This document shows, piece by piece, positions 20,259 to 33,004 of a stretch of DNA of 49,308 bases; within the stretch, counting starts at the first letter, position 1, and every line of letters begins with the position of its first letter. Under the pieces are notes generated by a model that ran no database searches, was not told the DNA's origin, and was given only the letters and a program-made list of their open reading frames with translations. The position numbers were made by a program, and so were the translations under genes. The DNA comes from Nitrososphaerota archaeon. Lineage in GTDB: Archaea; Thermoproteota; Nitrososphaeria; Nitrososphaerales; Nitrosopumilaceae. Location of the stretch: the NCBI GenBank assembly GCA_016215465.1, contig JACRJT010000032.1, forward strand, positions 1 to 49,308, read 5' to 3'.

Positions 20259-21359
20259 TTAATGAGATCCAGGATTTGATTTTTTAGTTGAATTAACTAG
20301 TTTTTGTATTATAACTGAATGCCAACCTGTTGAATAATTCTCAAATCCATGAGAAAGTGCATGTCCAATGCAACACGGCACACCGGCACATTCAGTGAAT
20401 GCGTAGTTCTTTTTTTCTCCAAAAAGACTTGTTTTTTTGTCAAACTGTAGTGTTTCTTTTAACATTTTACCTTCAGAGTCTGCCAGTATCAGCCCATCGT
20501 TATCAACAATGCAAATTCTGGTGTGTTTTTTTTCATCCTCATCTATTGGAGTGTGATCAATTATTGTTTGAGAGAGCGATTCCCACTTGAAGATCACTCC
20601 CAAAACCCCGATTATCTTGCCTTTGGTGTCACCGTTTTCTCGCACAGCTGCGGAGTAAGTTATTGCGAGATCATTATTCACAAGCGGAGATCGGTATACG
20701 GACTGGAATCCAAATTCATTGCCACTTTTTGTTCTAATTGCACTCGTGAACCATTTTCTATCTGCAGCATTGGTGTTTACCGAAGAATATTTTTCTTTAT
20801 TGCCATTTGCCACAATATTACCTTCCGTGTCAGCTAACACGAGGTCGTAGTAAACGGTATAGGCTTGCAATATGACATTAAGACGTTGTGAAACAGACGC
20901 ATATGCTTCTGGGGTTTTTTTGGTTAATGCGTCAACTACACTGCCATCAGTTGCCCACCACCTCACATCGGCAGTTCTTTCATACAGGTTGCGGTCGATC
21001 AGATCAATGTTTACCAAAGCCAGATCGGACAGCCTATTCCCACGATATTCCTTTGATTGCGATTTTATTAGATTGCCGACTTCCAGTATTTCTTTGGTGT
21101 CCTTTCGCATTCGCTCAGTAATTTTTATCGTCTCGTCCGATAATTCACTCATGTTTGCAGCAACTATACCAAAAGGTCGCCCAAAAGTTCCCGCACGGGC
21201 AGCTTCTATGGAGGCATTGACAGAGAGCACATGTGTTTTATGATTAATGTTATCCACCTTGTCAATTGCATTGTCTAGTTTTTCTGCAATAAGATCCGTG
21301 AATTCCACGACTTCTTCTAAAGTAAATTTTTTTCCTTGAATGGTTTCTGATACTTGCAC
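20259..21359 (-). CDS. Soluble chemoreceptor-like protein: MCP signalling tip followed by a Cache domain
   Basis: A 366-residue protein with no membrane helix. Residues about 39-75 (HKTHVLSVNASIEAARAGTFGRPFGIVAANM) match the highly conserved hairpin tip of methyl-accepting chemotaxis proteins, the part that binds CheW and CheA. The order is reversed relative to normal receptors: this short signalling hairpin comes first and a Cache-like sensor domain follows (about 105-330; LADTEGNIVANG, ADRKWFTSAIRTKSGNEFG, ICIVDNDGLILADSEG). No CheA, CheW or CheY-like chemotaxis cluster is seen nearby. The start is a GTG; an in-frame GTG at 21314 is also possible. Likely a cytosolic ligand sensor. Confidence 0.8.
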   Translation of the reverse strand: MQVSETIQGKKFTLEEVVEFTDLIAEKLDNAIDKVDNINHKTHVLSVNASIEAARAGTFGRPFGIVAANMSELSDETIKITERMRKDTKEILEVGNLIKSQSKEYRGNRLSDLALVNIDLIDRNLYERTADVRWWATDGSVVDALTKKTPEAYASVSQRLNVILQAYTVYYDLVLADTEGNIVANGNKEKYSSVNTNAADRKWFTSAIRTKSGNEFGFQSVYRSPLVNNDLAITYSAAVRENGDTKGKIIGVLGVIFKWESLSQTIIDHTPIDEDEKKHTRICIVDNDGLILADSEGKMLKETLQFDKKTSLFGEKKNYAFTECAGVPCCIGHALSHGFENYSTGWHSVIIQKLVNSTKKSNPGSH

Positions 21360-23063: not shown

Positions 23064-24452
23064 TCATTTTTCACATATAACCTGACTGTTTTTTCCACCA
23101 TCATACAAGCTAACAATGGTATCAATATCACAATCAGAGATGTATGGATAGCCAGTTTGAATTACAGGGTGCATCAGGTCTTCGGGTGCAGTGGAATGGG
23201 CAAGGCCAAAGGCATGACCAAGCTCGTGCCTTAGAATGGTTGTGAATTGATCATCACTGAGATTTTCAACATCATATATTGTAATGGTGGATTTTAGGAT
23301 CTGGTTTTGCGAGTCATCCGCAATAGATGTGGTATAGCCAGTGTACCCATCCCCGCTTTTCAGACTGCTCAGAACTATGTTGATGTCACCTTCCCCTTTG
23401 GATGATTCAACAACTTGCAGATTTGATGGAATGTAAAGCTGTGTTTTCTTTTTTGAGGCCTGCGTTAGCGCTCCAGCCCATCCCATATAGTATGTAGATA
23501 CGGAGCCCTTTGGGCCTTTATGTAGCAAGGAATCGTCAATGTCTACAGATTCATCAGAAAGCACAACCTCTTTGATTAGACGGATTTTTTCAGGATATTT
23601 CTCACCATTTGTTATCCCGACGTGCAGTAAAGCACCTGAGACCAGCCTCCATGAAAGGAATGTGTCAATTGTATCGCCCCGAAGATTTTGAATTACATAA
23701 CCTGATTGCATATTGCCAAGGTTTGATACGTGGTACTGTTGACCTACCAAATCCACCACATAAAGAGAATAGGCAGTGAATCCCGCACCTACTACCAAAG
23801 CCGCGGTTGCTATTACTATGATGTTTTTCTTGGCAAGAAGTATGTTTTTTTGTTCTTCTATACGCACGGTTTTATCAAGGATCAGATTTTCCTGTTCAAA
23901 TTCCTTTGTTTGGTGTTCGGATTCGCTTAGGTCTTTTTTCAGATCTTTAATTTCTGCGGACTCGTCGTTGATTTTTTTGTCTAATAATTTGTTGATTTTG
24001 ACAAGTAGTATTTTTTCTTGTTCAAGCTCTCTTATTTTGTGATCGCTTTCTGAATAATTGGCGTCACCAACAGGTATACTTTTGCCAAGCAATGATTCGA
24101 TTTTTTTCTGAAGTTGTTGTGAGCTCAAGTTGATTGTTTCAACTCTTTTTGCTTGTTCCGGATTTAGAGTGCCAAACTTTCCTTGCAGCAACATTTCAGC
24201 ATAGGTTCGTATTGGCACAAGTGGTGTTCTTAATTCATGATTAATTGTAGTTAAAAGATCTTCAGTTATTTTGATTTTGTTTGAAGAAATAGCATCAATT
24301 ATTTTTGTTGTTGAATTCTGAGTCGAATCAAGCTGTTCGATTATCGTTGGAATTTGTTCGTTTTTTGGCTCGCCGTTTAGTAAGTAATCCAGTTTTTTTT
24401 GAATTAGGATAAGCTGTCGTAACTCACGAATAAGATGTTGCTCTTGTTCCAT
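23064..24452 (-). CDS. HisKA domain - coiled coil - membrane helix - extracytoplasmic metzincin protease fusion
   Basis: A 462-residue protein joining two-component and protease parts. Residues 1-60 are helical. A complete DHp/HisKA domain follows, with phosphoacceptor H72 in LTTINHELRTPLVPI and the second helix through about 122. There is no HATPase domain: next comes a long coiled coil (about 135-208), one membrane helix (209-233) and a C-terminal domain with the metzincin zinc site HELGHAFGLAH (409-419) and a Met-turn-like PEDLMHP. The positive-in rule puts the HisKA part in the cytosol and the protease outside. It is third in an operon after a sensor kinase and a response regulator (6 bases from the latter). 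The protease domain is paralogous to that of 28423-29337. Confidence 0.88.
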   Translation of the reverse strand: MEQEQHLIRELRQLILIQKKLDYLLNGEPKNEQIPTIIEQLDSTQNSTTKIIDAISSNKIKITEDLLTTINHELRTPLVPIRTYAEMLLQGKFGTLNPEQAKRVETINLSSQQLQKKIESLLGKSIPVGDANYSESDHKIRELEQEKILLVKINKLLDKKINDESAEIKDLKKDLSESEHQTKEFEQENLILDKTVRIEEQKNILLAKKNIIVIATAALVVGAGFTAYSLYVVDLVGQQYHVSNLGNMQSGYVIQNLRGDTIDTFLSWRLVSGALLHVGITNGEKYPEKIRLIKEVVLSDESVDIDDSLLHKGPKGSVSTYYMGWAGALTQASKKKTQLYIPSNLQVVESSKGEGDINIVLSSLKSGDGYTGYTTSIADDSQNQILKSTITIYDVENLSDDQFTTILRHELGHAFGLAHSTAPEDLMHPVIQTGYPYISDCDIDTIVSLYDGGKNSQVICEK

Positions 24453-24458
24453 GCGCGT

Positions 24459-24821
24459 TTAAGATTTGACTCTCTCTAGGTAGTCCAACAGTTCGTCAGG
24501 ATCGATGGGTTTTCTGAGTATGGAGTGCACCCCCTTGCTTTTTAGTTCTATTTTGTCATCATCAGATATTGATGAGGCAGTAAGTGTGACGATCGTGTGA
24601 GAGTTAATTTTATTGTTATCGTACAAATAATTGACAATGTCTTTTCCAGAAAAATCAGGCATTGCCAAATCAAGTAATATCACATCAAATTTTGCAGCCT
24701 CCATCATTTGCAGACCATTTTGACCATTGTTTGATACAGAGATGTTGTGGCCTTTTAATTTGAAAAATTTTGAAAACATTGTTGTGATGTCGTGATTATC
24801 ATCGATCAAGAGAATGTCCAC
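24459..24821 (-). CDS. Single-domain response regulator
   Basis: A 120-residue receiver (REC) domain with nothing attached. Acidic pocket LLIDDNHD at the N-terminus, phosphoacceptor D51 in VILLDLAMPDFSG, switch residue in TLTASS and the lysine in LRKPID are all present. It sits between the sensor kinase at 24866 and the HisKA-protease fusion at 24452, which makes it a natural phosphate shuttle between them. It has no DNA-binding or enzymatic output. Confidence 0.93.
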   Translation of the reverse strand: MDILLIDDNHDITTMFSKFFKLKGHNISVSNNGQNGLQMMEAAKFDVILLDLAMPDFSGKDIVNYLYDNNKINSHTIVTLTASSISDDDKIELKSKGVHSILRKPIDPDELLDYLERVKS

Positions 24822-24865
24822 GAGTTGTTACCACTTTTGGAAATTAAAAGCTTTTGGTATTAGGC

Positions 24866-26605
24866 TCATATATTACGCAAGTACGATAACTCAAAGTAAA
24901 AAGTCGAGCCTGTCTTTCCATCACTTTCAACCCAAATTTTGCCATTTAATTTTTCAATTATTCCCTTAGATATGGCAAGACCAAGACCTGTCCCCCCAGC
25001 TTTTCGTCTTTCTGAAGTATCTATCTGGTAGAATTTTTTGAATAGTTCTGGTTGTTTACTTGGTGGAATTCCGATTCCGTTATCTTTGACATAAAATTTT
25101 ATTTTATCATTTTCTTTGTATGCCCCAACCTCGATTTTGGCATTTTGGTTTGGCGTAAACTTTATTGCGTTTGAGATCAAATTGTCAAAAACTTGGCGCA
25201 AACGTGTTTTGTCTGTCTTTACAGTCAATTCTTTTACAGGAACATTCACGGTAAACTCCTTGCCTTTTTCTCGTAATATCTTATAACTTGTGTTCAGTCC
25301 TTCAAAAAGTTCATCGATTGACACATCCTCGATTTCAAATCTCATCTTGTCCAAATCCAACTTTCTTGCATCCATTATGTCGCTAACCAAAGATTCTAAC
25401 CGTTTTGCACTTTTTTCAATGGTGTCAATTGATTCCAGCTGTTCATTGTTCAATTCTCCCAACATTTTGTTCTTTAGCATCTTGCAATAACCTATGATTG
25501 GCACTAGCGGCGTCTTGAGCTCATGAGTTACCATGGCTGAAAACTCTTCTTTTTGAATATCAACTTGCTTGATTTGCTCTGTTTTTAGATCTAGCTCAGA
25601 ATTGATCCGTTTTAGTCGATTTGAGAGTTCCAGGTTGGTATTTATTTTTCTGATCATAAAAAATCCCGCAACGCTTGTGATTGTGATTACTATACTAATC
25701 ATCATGATCGCTTCATTTCTCATGGAGATTGATGATGCGAACGTATCATGATGTGGCTGAATTGACATGATTGACCACTCGTGTATTCCGACAGGGATGG
25801 TTTTGAAGGCTATGAACATGTCATTTCCATCAATTGCTTTCGTAACGGTGCTAACGTCGCTTCTAGATTGTTCACTCAAATCCAAAGTAAACTTTCTAAT
25901 CTCAGTATCAGATTCGGATTTTCTAGAATCTGCCACTATGTTATTATTGTGATCTACGATGAGCAAATACTCGTTTTGTCCCAAATTAATTGTAGCCAGC
26001 GATTTTTGAAGTGTGCCGAGATTAAGAGCCCCAACAAAGATCCCATTCAAAGTCAGGTTAGAATTATCGTATATCGGAACTGCTATGCCTATCACGTTGT
26101 GCTTTTCATTGGCAGAGACATAGACCTCGCTTACATATGTTGAATCAGTGCTAATTGCGCCACGATACCAATCCCTAAAGGCAAAGTTCAATTGCGAGAG
26201 TTTGATCTGCGAATAAAACGGTTCTAAAAAATAGATGTCGCCATTAGGCATTGCATAAAAAACATAATCAAGATCAAATCTTTTATCAAGCATCTTTTTT
26301 GCTATTTCTCTTTTCTCAGAGTCTGCATCATCAGGTATGCCTTTCAGCTGATCAGAGATTAAATTTGAATATGCCGGAGGTTTCGTCATTGGGGAAGTTT
26401 GACCAGCCATCTCTATTATTCCAGCAGCGTATTGCAATCTTAATGCAAAACGTGATGATAGCAGTGTAACTTCATTTATTTTTGTTTTTGTTATTTCGTC
26501 ATTCAGTCTTTTGATCTCATTATTTGTGTAAATAGACAATATCCCCACAATTAACGCCGTAGTAGAAATCAAAATTATGATTGTTAATGTTATTTCTCTG
26601 TTCAA
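24866..26605 (-). CDS. Membrane sensor histidine kinase with extracytoplasmic Cache domain
   Basis: A 579-residue kinase. The N-terminal helix (about 5-27) and a second one (about 299-318) flank an extracytoplasmic sensor of dCache type, with typical phrases DYVFYAMPNGDIYFLEPF, DWYRGAI and IVDHNNNIVADSR. A linker leads to HisKA with H361 in FSAMVTHELKTPLVPIIGY, then the ATPase domain with the N-box (NLISNAIKFTPNQN), DNGIGIPPSKQPELFKKFYQ and GGTGLGLAISKGI. It starts with ATG at 26605 and is first in the kinase / regulator / HisKA-protease operon. The ligand is unknown; Cache domains usually bind small organic molecules. Confidence 0.94.
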   Translation of the reverse strand: MNREITLTIIILISTTALIVGILSIYTNNEIKRLNDEITKTKINEVTLLSSRFALRLQYAAGIIEMAGQTSPMTKPPAYSNLISDQLKGIPDDADSEKREIAKKMLDKRFDLDYVFYAMPNGDIYFLEPFYSQIKLSQLNFAFRDWYRGAISTDSTYVSEVYVSANEKHNVIGIAVPIYDNSNLTLNGIFVGALNLGTLQKSLATINLGQNEYLLIVDHNNNIVADSRKSESDTEIRKFTLDLSEQSRSDVSTVTKAIDGNDMFIAFKTIPVGIHEWSIMSIQPHHDTFASSISMRNEAIMMISIVITITSVAGFFMIRKINTNLELSNRLKRINSELDLKTEQIKQVDIQKEEFSAMVTHELKTPLVPIIGYCKMLKNKMLGELNNEQLESIDTIEKSAKRLESLVSDIMDARKLDLDKMRFEIEDVSIDELFEGLNTSYKILREKGKEFTVNVPVKELTVKTDKTRLRQVFDNLISNAIKFTPNQNAKIEVGAYKENDKIKFYVKDNGIGIPPSKQPELFKKFYQIDTSERRKAGGTGLGLAISKGIIEKLNGKIWVESDGKTGSTFYFELSYLRNI

Positions 26606-27465: not shown

Positions 27466-27828
27466 TCACACATTCTTGTACTTCTCTACTATTTCTTCAA
27501 GTATTTCCGGGGCAAACGGCTTGAAAAGAACCTCCGTAGGTTTTAGTTCGGATAGTTTTTGCTTACTGTCGCTCCGCAGATCTGCTGTCACCACTATGAC
27601 CTTTGCGTCGGGATTGATTGCTCTGATCTTTTCTAGCGCGTAAAACCCGTCGTAATCTGCCATCATAAGATCCAAAAACACCAAATCTGGTTTGTATTGC
27701 TCATACGATTCGACTGCATCTTTTCCATTGTAACCCTTTGCCAGTACATTCACGTTTAACATTTCCAAATAATCGGCAAAAACTTCGACGGTATCGCGGT
27801 CGTCATCAATTATGATTGCACTTGTCAA
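27466..27828 (-). CDS. Single-domain response regulator
   Basis: A 120-residue receiver domain: IIIDDDRD acidic pocket, phosphoacceptor D53 in LVFLDLMMADYDG, VVTAD switch and LFKPFA lysine. It has no output domain. It is more similar to the regulator at 28038-28433 (shared GYxGKDAV and GFxALExIR) than to the one at 24459, so it probably arose by local duplication. The 209-base gap upstream and its own palindrome suggest a separate promoter. Confidence 0.92.
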   Translation of the reverse strand: MTSAIIIDDDRDTVEVFADYLEMLNVNVLAKGYNGKDAVESYEQYKPDLVFLDLMMADYDGFYALEKIRAINPDAKVIVVTADLRSDSKQKLSELKPTEVLFKPFAPEILEEIVEKYKNV

Positions 27829-28037: not shown

Positions 28038-28433
28038 CTAGCGTTTTTTTGCCATCAACTCATTTAGTATTCGTATGATTTTTTTAATTTCAAAAGGCTT
28101 GTACACAATGGCAGAGGCTCCTAGTTGCCGTAATCTGTCTTCTGTCTGCGCTGTAAGATCTGCTGTGATCATGATTACTGTGGCATCGGGGCTTGTTTTT
28201 CGAATGTTTTCTAGTGCAAAAAACCCGTCATGGGGTTTAGGCATCATGACATCCAAAAAAACTACCCTTGGCCGCAATTTCTCGTACATTTTTACTGCAT
28301 CCTTTCCTGTGTAGCCAGTTCCTATCACCCTTATTCCATTAAACTGAAGAAATTCAGTAAAAGTTACAACTGTGTTATCGTCATCATCGATAATAATTGC
28401 AGTCAGATCTGCATCTTTCATCCTATTTCGCAC
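28038..28433 (-). CDS. Single-domain response regulator coupled to a metzincin gene
   Basis: A 131-residue receiver domain with IIIDDDDN, phosphoacceptor D61 in VVFLDVMMPKPHDG, MITAD and VYKPFE. Its start at 28433 lies 11 bases inside the end of the membrane metalloprotease gene, so the two are translationally coupled; a second ATG four codons later is just past the overlap. It has no attached output domain. Confidence 0.92.
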   Translation of the reverse strand: MRNRMKDADLTAIIIDDDDNTVVTFTEFLQFNGIRVIGTGYTGKDAVKMYEKLRPRVVFLDVMMPKPHDGFFALENIRKTSPDATVIMITADLTAQTEDRLRQLGASAIVYKPFEIKKIIRILNELMAKKR

Positions 28434-29337
28434 ACACCGTTTTGTCCATTGTCACTCCATCATATAGCTGGGAAATTGCGTCAGTATCGCATTCAGAAAT
28501 GTATGGGACTTGCATGCTTATGGTAGGTGCCATAAGATCTTCAGGGGCTGTCGAATGACCAAGACCGATTGCATGACCGAACTCATGTCGTATAATTGTG
28601 GCAAGTTCCTCATCAGAAAGGCTGTCCACATCATAAATGACAATCTGCGACTTGAGGATCTCGTCCCCGTCAACTGTTGACTTTGTAAATCCCGAATAGC
28701 CGTCTTGGTCTTTTAGCGTGGATAGTTTTATGACTATATTTCCTATTCCAGATTCAGATTCAATTATTTTGAATTTGGTCGGTATTGAGTATTTTGTTTT
28801 TATCGTCGAAGATTCCTCCAATGCACCCTTCCAACCAGCAAAGTAAGTCGAGCTGGTGCCTAGCCCTTTGTGAGTGATAGAGTCATCTATGCTTATTCGA
28901 TCCGTTGAAAGAATGGCGTTTTTTATTGATTTTATTTTATGCTCGTCAACTATACCTGAATTTGCGATATTTACAACTAGTGTGGATTCTGCATCGATTT
29001 TCCAAAATTTCCATGTGTCCACAGTATCGCCCCTAAGATTTTCAACCACGTATTTTGTCTTGAATGGCATTCCAGTATCATCTGACTTTAATTGGTTAAT
29101 TGTGATAACTGATCCGCTTGCAATGACTGCACATACTGTTATGCAATAAATTGTTTTGAGATTGATTCGTTTTTTTAATATTTTTGTATTTGACTCAGAT
29201 GTGACTTTTGCAGCTAATGCATATGATAGGACATTTCTTTGATTTTCAAGTATCTCGATTTTATTTTTCATTATTTTGGTTATGTGTGCAAATATGATCT
29301 TTTGTTGCTCAAGATCTATTATTCTCTCTTGCTCCAA
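28423..29337 (-). CDS. Membrane-anchored metzincin protease with cytosolic coiled coil
   Basis: A 304-residue protein. Residues 1-60 form a charged coiled coil without a HisKA domain, followed by a membrane helix (about 61-80) and a C-terminal protease domain carrying HEFGHAIGLGH (251-261) and PEDLMAP. The region 90-300 is paralogous to the C-terminus of the 23064-24452 fusion: both read NLRGDTxDT, then IDDSxxHKG, and end in a YISxCDxDxIxxLYDG pattern. Two cysteines near the end (SECD, VCAK) match the paralogue and may form a disulphide. The start is a TTG three bases past the stop of the ORF at 29340-29594. The following response regulator overlaps it. Confidence 0.87.
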   Translation of the reverse strand: MEQERIIDLEQQKIIFAHITKIMKNKIEILENQRNVLSYALAAKVTSESNTKILKKRINLKTIYCITVCAVIASGSVITINQLKSDDTGMPFKTKYVVENLRGDTVDTWKFWKIDAESTLVVNIANSGIVDEHKIKSIKNAILSTDRISIDDSITHKGLGTSSTYFAGWKGALEESSTIKTKYSIPTKFKIIESESGIGNIVIKLSTLKDQDGYSGFTKSTVDGDEILKSQIVIYDVDSLSDEELATIIRHEFGHAIGLGHSTAPEDLMAPTISMQVPYISECDTDAISQLYDGVTMDKTVCAK

Positions 29338-32110: not shown

Positions 32111-33004
32111 TCAGTTGCCGTCATATGCCAAACTGTTTGCTTTTTCAATATGTTCTATTATCTGTGATATTTTTTGCTCCGCTTTTTTTGCATAATCGTA
32201 CGATGATTTGAATTTGATATACGAATCGTAGTAGTTTGACTGCAAAACTGATGCGCCTCCGTCTATCTGTGTCTTTTCTGCACTATTCAAATATTTTTTT
32301 GCCCACCAGAACGAAGTCCATGCATTATCTAGTGACTCATTTGATGCGTTACCCTCATATGAAATGGAATTTAGCAATGACTGGGTTTCGTCTATCTTTG
32401 ATTCAAGTGGAAGAATTTTTTCGCTTGCCATCTCTTGGTATTTTTCTGATCTGCTCTGCCAGTCTGCAGTGTTACTTGGGGCCTGAATGTTTTGCTCTGA
32501 ATCCTGCAACCATGATTCATAGTCTTCAATTGTTGGATACATTATGTCATTTGGATCTACACTGTGTGGCAAACCCAATGCATGTCCTATCTCATGTTTT
32601 GTTATTTGCAGTACGTACTCTGGAGATGCCAAGTGCCACTCTTTGTCTTTGAAAAATCCAAGTGTGATTGCCATTGTCGGCTTGCCGTATGCGTTTGCAG
32701 TGTTTGTGGAATAATATCCAAGCTTTCCTTCTCCGTACTGGCTTGCCCATTCTACTACAAAGTCTGACTTGTCAACATACTGAACTGTCTCAAACTTGAG
32801 ATTGGATGTCTTGGCTTCCCAGTACTGTGTGGCATTTGTCAGGACGTCCCCAAATTCGTCTTGCCAGTGCTGCGGCATCTTTTGTACATACATGTTGACG
32901 GTCTCTGCTTTGGCATATGAAATTGAGCCAATACTAAACAAAATCAAGACTGACATGACAACTGCAAGACGTCTGGGTTTGGTGCTCAAATACACCAAGT
33001 CCAA
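32111..33004 (-). CDS. Secreted matrixin-like metalloprotease
   Basis: A 297-residue protein with a signal peptide (about 11-33, VVMSVLILFSIGSISYAKA) and a metzincin catalytic domain with HEIGHALGLPH (137-147) and Met-turn NDIMYP. After about residue 165 the chain is a long helical region with Ala- and Ser-rich coils (EKISQIIEHIEKANSLAYDGN at the end). Unlike the two other metzincins here it has no membrane helix beyond the signal peptide and no linked regulator. The domain is only distantly similar to theirs outside the zinc site. No propeptide with a cysteine switch is seen. Confidence 0.88.
   Translation of the reverse strand: MDLVYLSTKPRRLAVVMSVLILFSIGSISYAKAETVNMYVQKMPQHWQDEFGDVLTNATQYWEAKTSNLKFETVQYVDKSDFVVEWASQYGEGKLGYYSTNTANAYGKPTMAITLGFFKDKEWHLASPEYVLQITKHEIGHALGLPHSVDPNDIMYPTIEDYESWLQDSEQNIQAPSNTADWQSRSEKYQEMASEKILPLESKIDETQSLLNSISYEGNASNESLDNAWTSFWWAKKYLNSAEKTQIDGGASVLQSNYYDSYIKFKSSYDYAKKAEQKISQIIEHIEKANSLAYDGN

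Follow-up and report, generated by a model that had tools for sequence, protein, structure and literature searches.

The closest described relatives of the arrangement reported here are phosphotransferases of the Spo0B/ChpT type, in which a kinase-inactive, DHp-like dimer likewise exchanges phosphate with receivers. These relay the signal to a transcription factor, and none is joined to a protease; Spo0B and ChpT themselves retain a degenerate ATPase domain. A membrane-anchored variant, Spo0B-TM, has been described in Paenibacillus (PMC12826061). HisKA domains without a HATPase also occur in archaeal REC-PAS/GAF-HisKA proteins such as AF_1472, which are proposed to dimerize and interact, but whose REC lies in the same chain and which have neither a membrane helix nor a protease (PMC5847659). 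Control of surface proteolysis by a signal passed outward across the membrane from the cytoplasm is known from LapD-LapG; there, however, c-di-GMP carries the signal, the receptor is a different protein from the protease, and the protease is not a matrixin, so that the analogy is one of logic only (PMC3032545, PMC3032553). Matrixin-type proteases (Peptidase M10, arCOG04994) have been noted in Nitrosopumilus, from the same archaeal group, in passages that go no further than naming them as enzymes with which sponge symbionts might degrade proteins and draw no link to a DHp, a REC, or a kinase (PMC6697440). Of the response regulators of thaumarchaea, some three in four consist of a receiver domain alone (PMC5847659), and a known output is mostly lacking for these.

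The locus lies in a window of 49,308 nucleotides (the whole stretch of DNA analyzed; contig JACRJT010000032.1 of a Nitrosopumilaceae genome), where three tightly packed genes encode, in order, a Cache sensor kinase, a lone receiver (REC), and a protease fusion. An earlier note on this DNA had proposed these three reading frames, and each was recovered at the same position on the minus strand. The sensor histidine kinase (579 amino acids; 24866 to 26605) consists of a membrane helix, a dCache domain, a second membrane helix, HisKA (H-ELKTP), and HATPase_c, as delineated by Pfam (dCache_1, 74 bits; HisKA, 61 bits; HATPase_c, 106 bits) and by domain and hydropathy scans. It is separated by 44 bp from the REC gene (120 amino acids; 24459 to 24821; Pfam Response_reg, 72 bits), which carries no output domain and clusters with the receivers encoded upstream of other matrixins. 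After a further 6 bp comes the gene for a 462-amino-acid DHp-coiled coil-membrane helix-matrixin protein (23064 to 24452). Pfam detects neither GGDEF/EAL (c-di-GMP receptor) domains nor LapG in the operon proteins.

The N-terminal part of the fusion protein is an orphan DHp (residues 61 to 123; 24084 to 24272, minus strand). Residues 65 to 122 match HisKA (PF00512) at 45.3 bits against a cutoff of 26.9, and the phospho-acceptor motif H72-ELRTP (H72 at 24237 to 24239) fits H-E/D-x-x-T/N. Profile and motif thus assign the domain to HisKA, with dimerization and phosphate exchange with a receiver as putative functions. A predicted coiled coil follows at about residues 136 to 203 (23844 to 24047), seen as a long helix in a low-confidence model and in alignments and also present in paralogues that lack a DHp; next comes a single membrane helix, identified by hydropathy scan (residues 204 to 222; 23787 to 23843). 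The remaining, extracytoplasmic region (residues 233 to 462; 23067 to 23756) scores 37.9 bits against a cutoff of 24 for Peptidase_M10/matrixin, has sequence hits in the PDB, and carries the metzincin zinc motif HExxHxxGxxH as HELGHAFGLAH (23196 to 23228), with a downstream DLM as the Met-turn. HExGHxxGLxH is kept in 81 of 86 protease family members, and the top Foldseek matches of a moderate-confidence model of the matrixin are MMP catalytic domains (E = 1e-4). Motif and modeled fold are both those expected of a matrixin (M10) within the metzincins, and proteolysis is predicted. The full-length AlphaFold model, built from five sequences, has a pLDDT of 53, too low to be informative.

Only HisKA and metalloprotease families match the 462-residue chain in Pfam, and no HATPase is found in it; the protein is therefore not a histidine kinase. 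The earlier note had said that a HATPase in the middle region would count against its reading. A hidden one between the DHp and the membrane helix was rejected, as Pfam finds none and the coiled coil occupies that stretch. In Spo0B and ChpT, the DHp dimer is followed by a degenerate ATPase-like domain, whereas Pfam finds none in the fusion protein, which carries the coiled coil, membrane helix, and matrixin instead; the proposal that it works like these proteins is unaffected by this difference in build. No NCBIfam model covers the protein above its cutoff.

A search for HisKA and a metzincin in one chain, as the earlier note had advised, found 17 such genes in 16 genomes from five Nitrosopumilaceae genera (the present gene and 16 further homologues). 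The fused architecture is thus real, and its retention rules out a chance reading frame, a chance fusion, or an assembly artifact. All full-length matches among those listed come from Nitrosopumilaceae, with weaker matches in other families of the order (365 genomes). Our literature searches on histidine kinase with matrixin, or matrixin with Nitrosopumilus, found no description of such a fusion.

Gene neighborhoods tie these proteases to receivers. A REC gene lies near all 17 fused proteases and directly upstream of 15 (spacing, -23 to +8 bp), and a kinase lies near 14, contrary to the possibility raised beforehand that homologues would never stand beside kinase or regulator genes. The protease family comprises 137 genes, and 120 of them lack the DHp, indicating that the protease as such can do without it. 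Even so, a REC is found within three genes of 76 of these 120 (about 8% expected), and the RECs upstream of fused and of DHp-less proteases group together. The kinase's Cache sensor (residues 43 to 296; 25718 to 26479, minus strand) leads to the same protein. In two genomes (G005 and G222), its family is fused directly to matrixin; its close relatives within a set of 25 Nitrosopumilaceae genomes all belong to kinases of such operons except for one that is fused directly to matrixin, and this makes the protease the likely output. It is therefore strongly suggested, from gene order and domain fusions, that Cache, REC, DHp, and protease form one system whose output is the protease. The earlier note had left open whether signaling switches the protease or reports its activity; the Cache-matrixin fusions favor switching, and reporting is less favored.

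We consider it somewhat more probable than its alternatives combined (roughly 55%) that this is a membrane-bound surface protease controlled from the inside by a two-component phosphorelay. The Cache domain would read an external signal, and the kinase would phosphorylate the lone REC. The docking site of REC~P would then be the orphan DHp dimer, which lies at the protease's cytoplasmic N terminus; there the phosphoryl group would most likely pass to H72 or else be hydrolyzed with the help of T76. DHp helix 2 would pick up a change in the four-helix bundle and hand it on, by way of the coiled coil and the one membrane helix, to the matrixin, where either activity or substrate access would change. 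The protease occupies the place where a kinase has its ATPase domain. Transfer of phosphate to H72, passage of the signal across the membrane, and the sign of the effect, activating or inhibiting, are steps that we infer, and we know of no direct precedent for a DHp that signals to a protease by way of one membrane helix. That REC~P docks on or phosphorylates the orphan HisKA, so that an archaeal phosphorelay ends at an extracytoplasmic protease and not at a gene, under direct inside-out control, we regard as an even bet. Points that favor phosphorelay control are the REC coupling, the conservation of DHp residues, purifying selection, the separate DHp genes, the Cache-matrixin fusions, and the shared regulator-contact positions; points that weigh against it are the lack of a DHp in most family proteases, one fused copy with an altered histidine, stand-alone DHps without it, and contact changes confined to the kinase in one clade.

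Among the fused DHps, the histidine is kept in 16 of 17 and both the +1 Glu and a +4 Thr/Ser/Asn in all 17. The substitution pattern of the DHp is one of purifying selection (Ka/Ks, 0.08 versus 0.20 for the coiled coil). Together with the REC found near every fused protease, this bears out the coupling of two-component signaling to a surface protease that had been proposed. The earlier note would have counted loss of the HisKA pattern in homologues against it, and some loss is seen: the histidine is Asp in one fused copy (L047), and many paralogues have no DHp. Among 14 stand-alone DHps, 4 lack the histidine and 6 the +1 Glu. These patterns leave some room for signaling in the reverse direction, with the protease as sensor and the DHp dephosphorylating REC~P or serving as a phosphate sink, depending on substrate or on the state of the ectodomain; the protease would then tune a kinase-REC pathway that has its real output in another place. 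HisKA phosphatase activity needs the +4 Thr/Ser/Asn, and in the HisKA proteins tested the +1 Glu is essential for kinase activity alone (PMC3510030); the former is present in all 31 orphan DHps, while the latter is lost as described, and all three H-to-D variants (L047, L056, and L130) also have Asn for Thr, giving a DxxxN that resembles the DxxxQ phosphatase motif. However, the REC comes without an output domain and also pairs with proteases that have no DHp, the Cache-matrixin fusions place the sensor upstream of the protease, and every fused DHp retains the +1 Glu. We therefore consider this direction unlikely.

That same Glu, retained despite the lack of an ATPase domain, would suit a split kinase, in which the operon kinase's ATPase phosphorylates H72 directly, in trans or within a heterodimer, after which the REC receives the phosphate from the protease DHp or this DHp is itself the switch; the kinase gene near 14 of the 17 fused proteases would fit as well. 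So would two kinases (L002 and L061) that have tandem DHps, with a histidine only in the first, and lie beside a REC and a matrixin. The relationships of the domains speak against it. Over the whole domain, the fusion DHp is 35% identical to that of the adjacent kinase, with 41 of the 63 other kinases in the set being closer, and protease DHps group in the tree with stand-alone DHps, away from operon kinases. This makes heterodimers less likely, and a recent duplication of the neighboring kinase's DHp is rejected on the same grounds; the frequent lack of the +1 Glu in separate DHps also disfavors a split kinase, which we find more doubtful still. The special likeness of the two DHps that had been noted earlier is thus not supported for the domain as a whole and survives at positions that correspond by homology to known regulator-contact sites, where five of six residues are identical, a match that just one of the 19 other HisKA domains in the same genome shares. 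In one clade, the kinase's contact residues have changed and those of the protease DHp have not.

If the DHp were a module for dimerization or anchoring alone, co-expression without direct signaling would account for the gene order. DHp domains do dimerize, 120 of the 137 family genes do without one, and L047 lacks the histidine. Yet such a module would have no need to retain the H, E+1, and T/S/N+4 residues or a regulator-contact surface, and the coiled coil alone could dimerize the protein. Moreover, DHps of the fused type are also encoded by small genes of their own immediately next to DHp-less proteases, where they are not part of the protease chain; a single clade of fused DHps that excludes stand-alone ones is rejected (P = 0.002). 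We thus regard this explanation as improbable.

An outward-facing protease with an inner DHp, in an operon with a kinase and a REC, suggests that ammonia-oxidizing archaea control a surface protease directly by phosphosignaling and not by gene expression. The system would be a two-component phosphorelay, known in kind, with a novel protease output. If this is correct, one group of bare receivers gains a concrete output, a surface protease with no transcription involved, and with it a new kind of two-component effector; an external ligand could then lead these very abundant ammonia oxidizers to alter their surface or release proteins from it. The class would be modular, its parts (Cache, kinase, REC, DHp, and protease) recombined across Nitrosopumilaceae as joined or single genes.

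At one locus (L001), the DHp and protease reading frames lie in the same frame, separated by a single TGA, and at another (L112) the REC-protease gap may contain a DHp remnant; splitting and loss of the DHp may therefore also occur. Around the operon in the window lie further genes that the earlier note had not picked up. A second protease copy has the coiled coil, membrane helix, and matrixin without a DHp (304 amino acids; 28423 to 29337, minus strand; Pfam M10, 40.7 bits, and hydropathy scan). It is followed directly by a lone REC (28038 to 28433, minus strand) and then by another (27466 to 27828, minus strand), both identified by Pfam, and a third, more distant matrixin lies at 32111 to 33004.

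The window is contig 21 of a genome of 1.70 Mb, to which Nitrosarchaeum/Nitrosopumilus MAGs are the closest named relatives. The three genes of the operon lie on the minus strand at the positions claimed in the earlier note. By Pfam, they encode a 579-amino-acid kinase (24866-26605; dCache_1, HisKA, and HATPase_c), a 120-amino-acid protein with a single receiver (REC) domain (24459-24821), and a 462-amino-acid protein (23064-24452) with a HisKA (DHp) domain at residues 65 to 122 (45.3 bits; cutoff, 26.9) and a Peptidase_M10 domain (37.9 bits; cutoff, 24). Pfam found no ATPase domain in this last protein, bearing out the proposed architecture, and no NCBIfam model scored above its cutoff on it. 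A hydropathy scan confirmed its single membrane helix (about residues 204 to 222). Because two lysines immediately precede this helix on its N-terminal side, the positive-inside rule predicts that the DHp should be cytoplasmic and the protease extracytoplasmic. When the outer domain was modeled by itself with AlphaFold (pTM, 0.67; mean pLDDT, 59), the top PDB matches were matrix metalloproteinase catalytic domains; the full-length model was of too low quality for use.

A profile of the 462-amino-acid family gave 154 matches (E ≤ 1e-10) in 250 Nitrosopumilaceae genomes. DNA was taken around the stronger matches, and open reading frames and domains were called with profiles from the window's own domains; non-Pfam domain calls are from profiles trained on the protein's own family, and several compared genomes are fragmentary. 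HisKA and a metzincin in one chain, a combination that the earlier note proposed to seek elsewhere, were found in 17 of 137 nonredundant matrixin genes, from 16 genomes of five genera (g1, g6, g9, g15, and g21); the matches listed included no fusion outside Nitrosopumilaceae. These genes sit beside two-component genes: a REC gene lies within three genes of all 17, directly upstream on the same strand in 15 (spacing, -23 to +8 bp), and a kinase is near 14. Two of the remaining loci (L046 and L113) are cut short by a contig edge, with a partial ATPase domain visible in L046; the third (L111) has no kinase within three genes. REC genes also lie within three genes of 76/120 DHp-less proteases, against a chance expectation of about 8% (from 30 receivers in the window's genome and an assumed 2,050 genes). 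Formal probabilities overstate independence because the loci are related, but the excess is large despite this kinship.

Orphan DHps, which lack an ATPase domain, are by phylogeny a family of their own. A tree of 95 DHp domains, built on few columns, places 17 fused and 9 separate DHps in one group (SH-aLRT, 87), with the kinases of the same operons set apart from it (18 rows; SH-aLRT, 97). The hypothesis that fused DHps form a clade by themselves was rejected (p 0.002); thus, fusion and/or fission was repeated. Five DHp-only genes, all above the Pfam HisKA cutoff, directly adjoin DHp-less proteases (L001, 131 amino acids; L045, 133; L056, 130; L123, 113, with a 4-bp overlap; and L144, 71). 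Others lie two or three genes from the protease (L116, L117, and L130) or, in L047, adjoin the operon kinase of a fused protease. Small soluble kinases of other matrixin loci (L003, L058, L067, L068, and L143) fall near the group, weakly suggesting that the orphan DHp descended from a second soluble kinase through loss of that kinase's ATPase domain. Soluble kinases in L002 (6508-7422, minus strand) and L061 (8017-8910, plus strand) carry two tandem DHps ahead of the ATPase domain, with the histidine in the first only and arginine in the second.

The earlier note had likened the protease DHp to that of the adjacent kinase. This does not hold overall (35% identity; of the 63 other kinases compared, 41 are closer to the protease DHp) but does at the regulator-contact positions, which we take, by homology with HK853 and EnvZ, to be +7, +8, +11, +12, +15, and +16 from the histidine (VPTYML in the protease DHp, VPGYML in the kinase). 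Only 1 of 19 other aligned HisKA domains of this genome (G000:C12) matches equally well; the rest match at 0 to 2 positions. The shared positions fit binding of both DHps to the same REC. A clade of three loci (L043, L105, and L106), in which the kinase contact positions and REC helix 1 have changed and those of the protease DHp have not, calls for caution with this reading.

The Cache domain of the kinase offers the clearest indication of the direction of signaling. Two matrixins (L052 in G005 and L125 in G222) are themselves fused, with membrane helices between, to a Cache domain that shares its family with that of the window's kinase (36% and 30% identity to the latter, respectively); no kinase or REC is among their nearest genes. 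A Cache search of 41 genomes gave six matches (E ≤ 1e-10) in the 25 Nitrosopumilaceae: five belong to fused-protease operons, where they lie in the kinase, and the sixth is the Cache-matrixin fusion. G067, a genome from a different family, accounted for six more. So among these 25 genomes, near the window's lineage, the Cache family always leads to a matrixin protease, which favors the protease as the output of signaling.

The best-supported model is that the Cache kinase would signal through REC to the orphan DHp and, via the coiled coil and membrane helix, to the matrixin. The evidence for the operon system is sequence comparison throughout, and gene order, domains, residue conservation, selection, and repeated co-occurrence are direct observations. 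We infer that phosphorylated REC (REC~P) would dock on the orphan DHp, that phosphate would reside on H72, and that the DHp would transmit outward to the matrixin, with whichever sign its control over the protease may have. The phospho-acceptor histidine is kept in 16/17 fused DHps (aspartate in L047), and all 17 have glutamate at +1 and Thr/Ser/Asn at +4. Against its closest homologue (in G008; 83% identical), the window's protein has Ka/Ks values of 0.08 in the DHp and 0.10 in the catalytic domain, versus 0.20 in both the N-terminal stretch and the coiled coil. Spo0B/ChpT phosphotransferases, including membrane-bound Spo0B (PMC12826061), and LapD-LapG, which controls the cleavage of surface proteins from the inside out (PMC3032545, PMC3032553), are functional analogues; neither is homologous to this system as a whole.

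In tested HisKA kinases, the acidic residue at +1 is required solely for kinase activity and Thr/Asn at +4 solely for phosphatase activity (PMC3510030). Fused DHps keep both; separate DHps have lost the +1 glutamate in 6/14 and the histidine in 4/14, and all 14 have Thr/Ser/Asn at +4. The H-to-D and T-to-N variants are exactly the same three DHps (L047, 9605-10870; L056, 5559-5951; L130, 4531-5025; all minus strand). Their DxxxN recalls the DxxxQ phosphatase motif of PMC3510030, and they may have turned to a phosphatase or docking function only. This keeps alive the alternative that the orphan DHp may act as a REC~P phosphatase or phosphate sink, with the protease as sensor. The titles of two EnvZ papers (references 18 and 19 of PMC5727384) refer to a DHp that has phosphatase activity in the absence of its catalytic domain and to transfer in the reverse direction, from regulator to DHp.

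A 2018 census of archaeal two-component systems mentions REC-PAS/GAF-HisKA regulators in which HisKA occurs without HATPase and puts bare receivers at ~75% of thaumarchaeal regulators; its main text contains neither "protease" nor "peptidase" (PMC5847659). Matrixin has a single mention for sponge Nitrosopumilus (PMC6697440). We found no published description of the fusion in the open-licence literature, which is no proof of novelty.

The window holds three matrixins within 10 kb. The second (28423-29337), of the same family without a DHp, is followed by two lone RECs (28038-28433 and 27466-27828) of a different REC group from the operon's, a separate REC-protease association also present in L138 (G010) and L168 (G007). 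The third, distant matrixin (32111-33004; 297 amino acids; Pfam M10, 54.5 bits; HEIGHALGLPH) has a hydrophobic N-terminal segment. A 366-amino-acid protein (20259-21359; like these, on the minus strand) has an MCP signaling segment N-terminal to dCache, an unusual order for a chemoreceptor. Elsewhere, divergent pairs of matrixins with multiple membrane helices (349 to 646 amino acids; L051, 2262-5433; L053, 11002-14542; L054, 5919-9926; L055, 5844-9014) each include one member without the third zinc histidine or the Met-turn, as if it were a regulatory pseudo-protease. A further subtype (L057, L063, L064, L074, and L075) comprises DHp-less matrixins without two-component neighbors, behind a ~300-amino-acid protein in a gene order conserved in several genomes.
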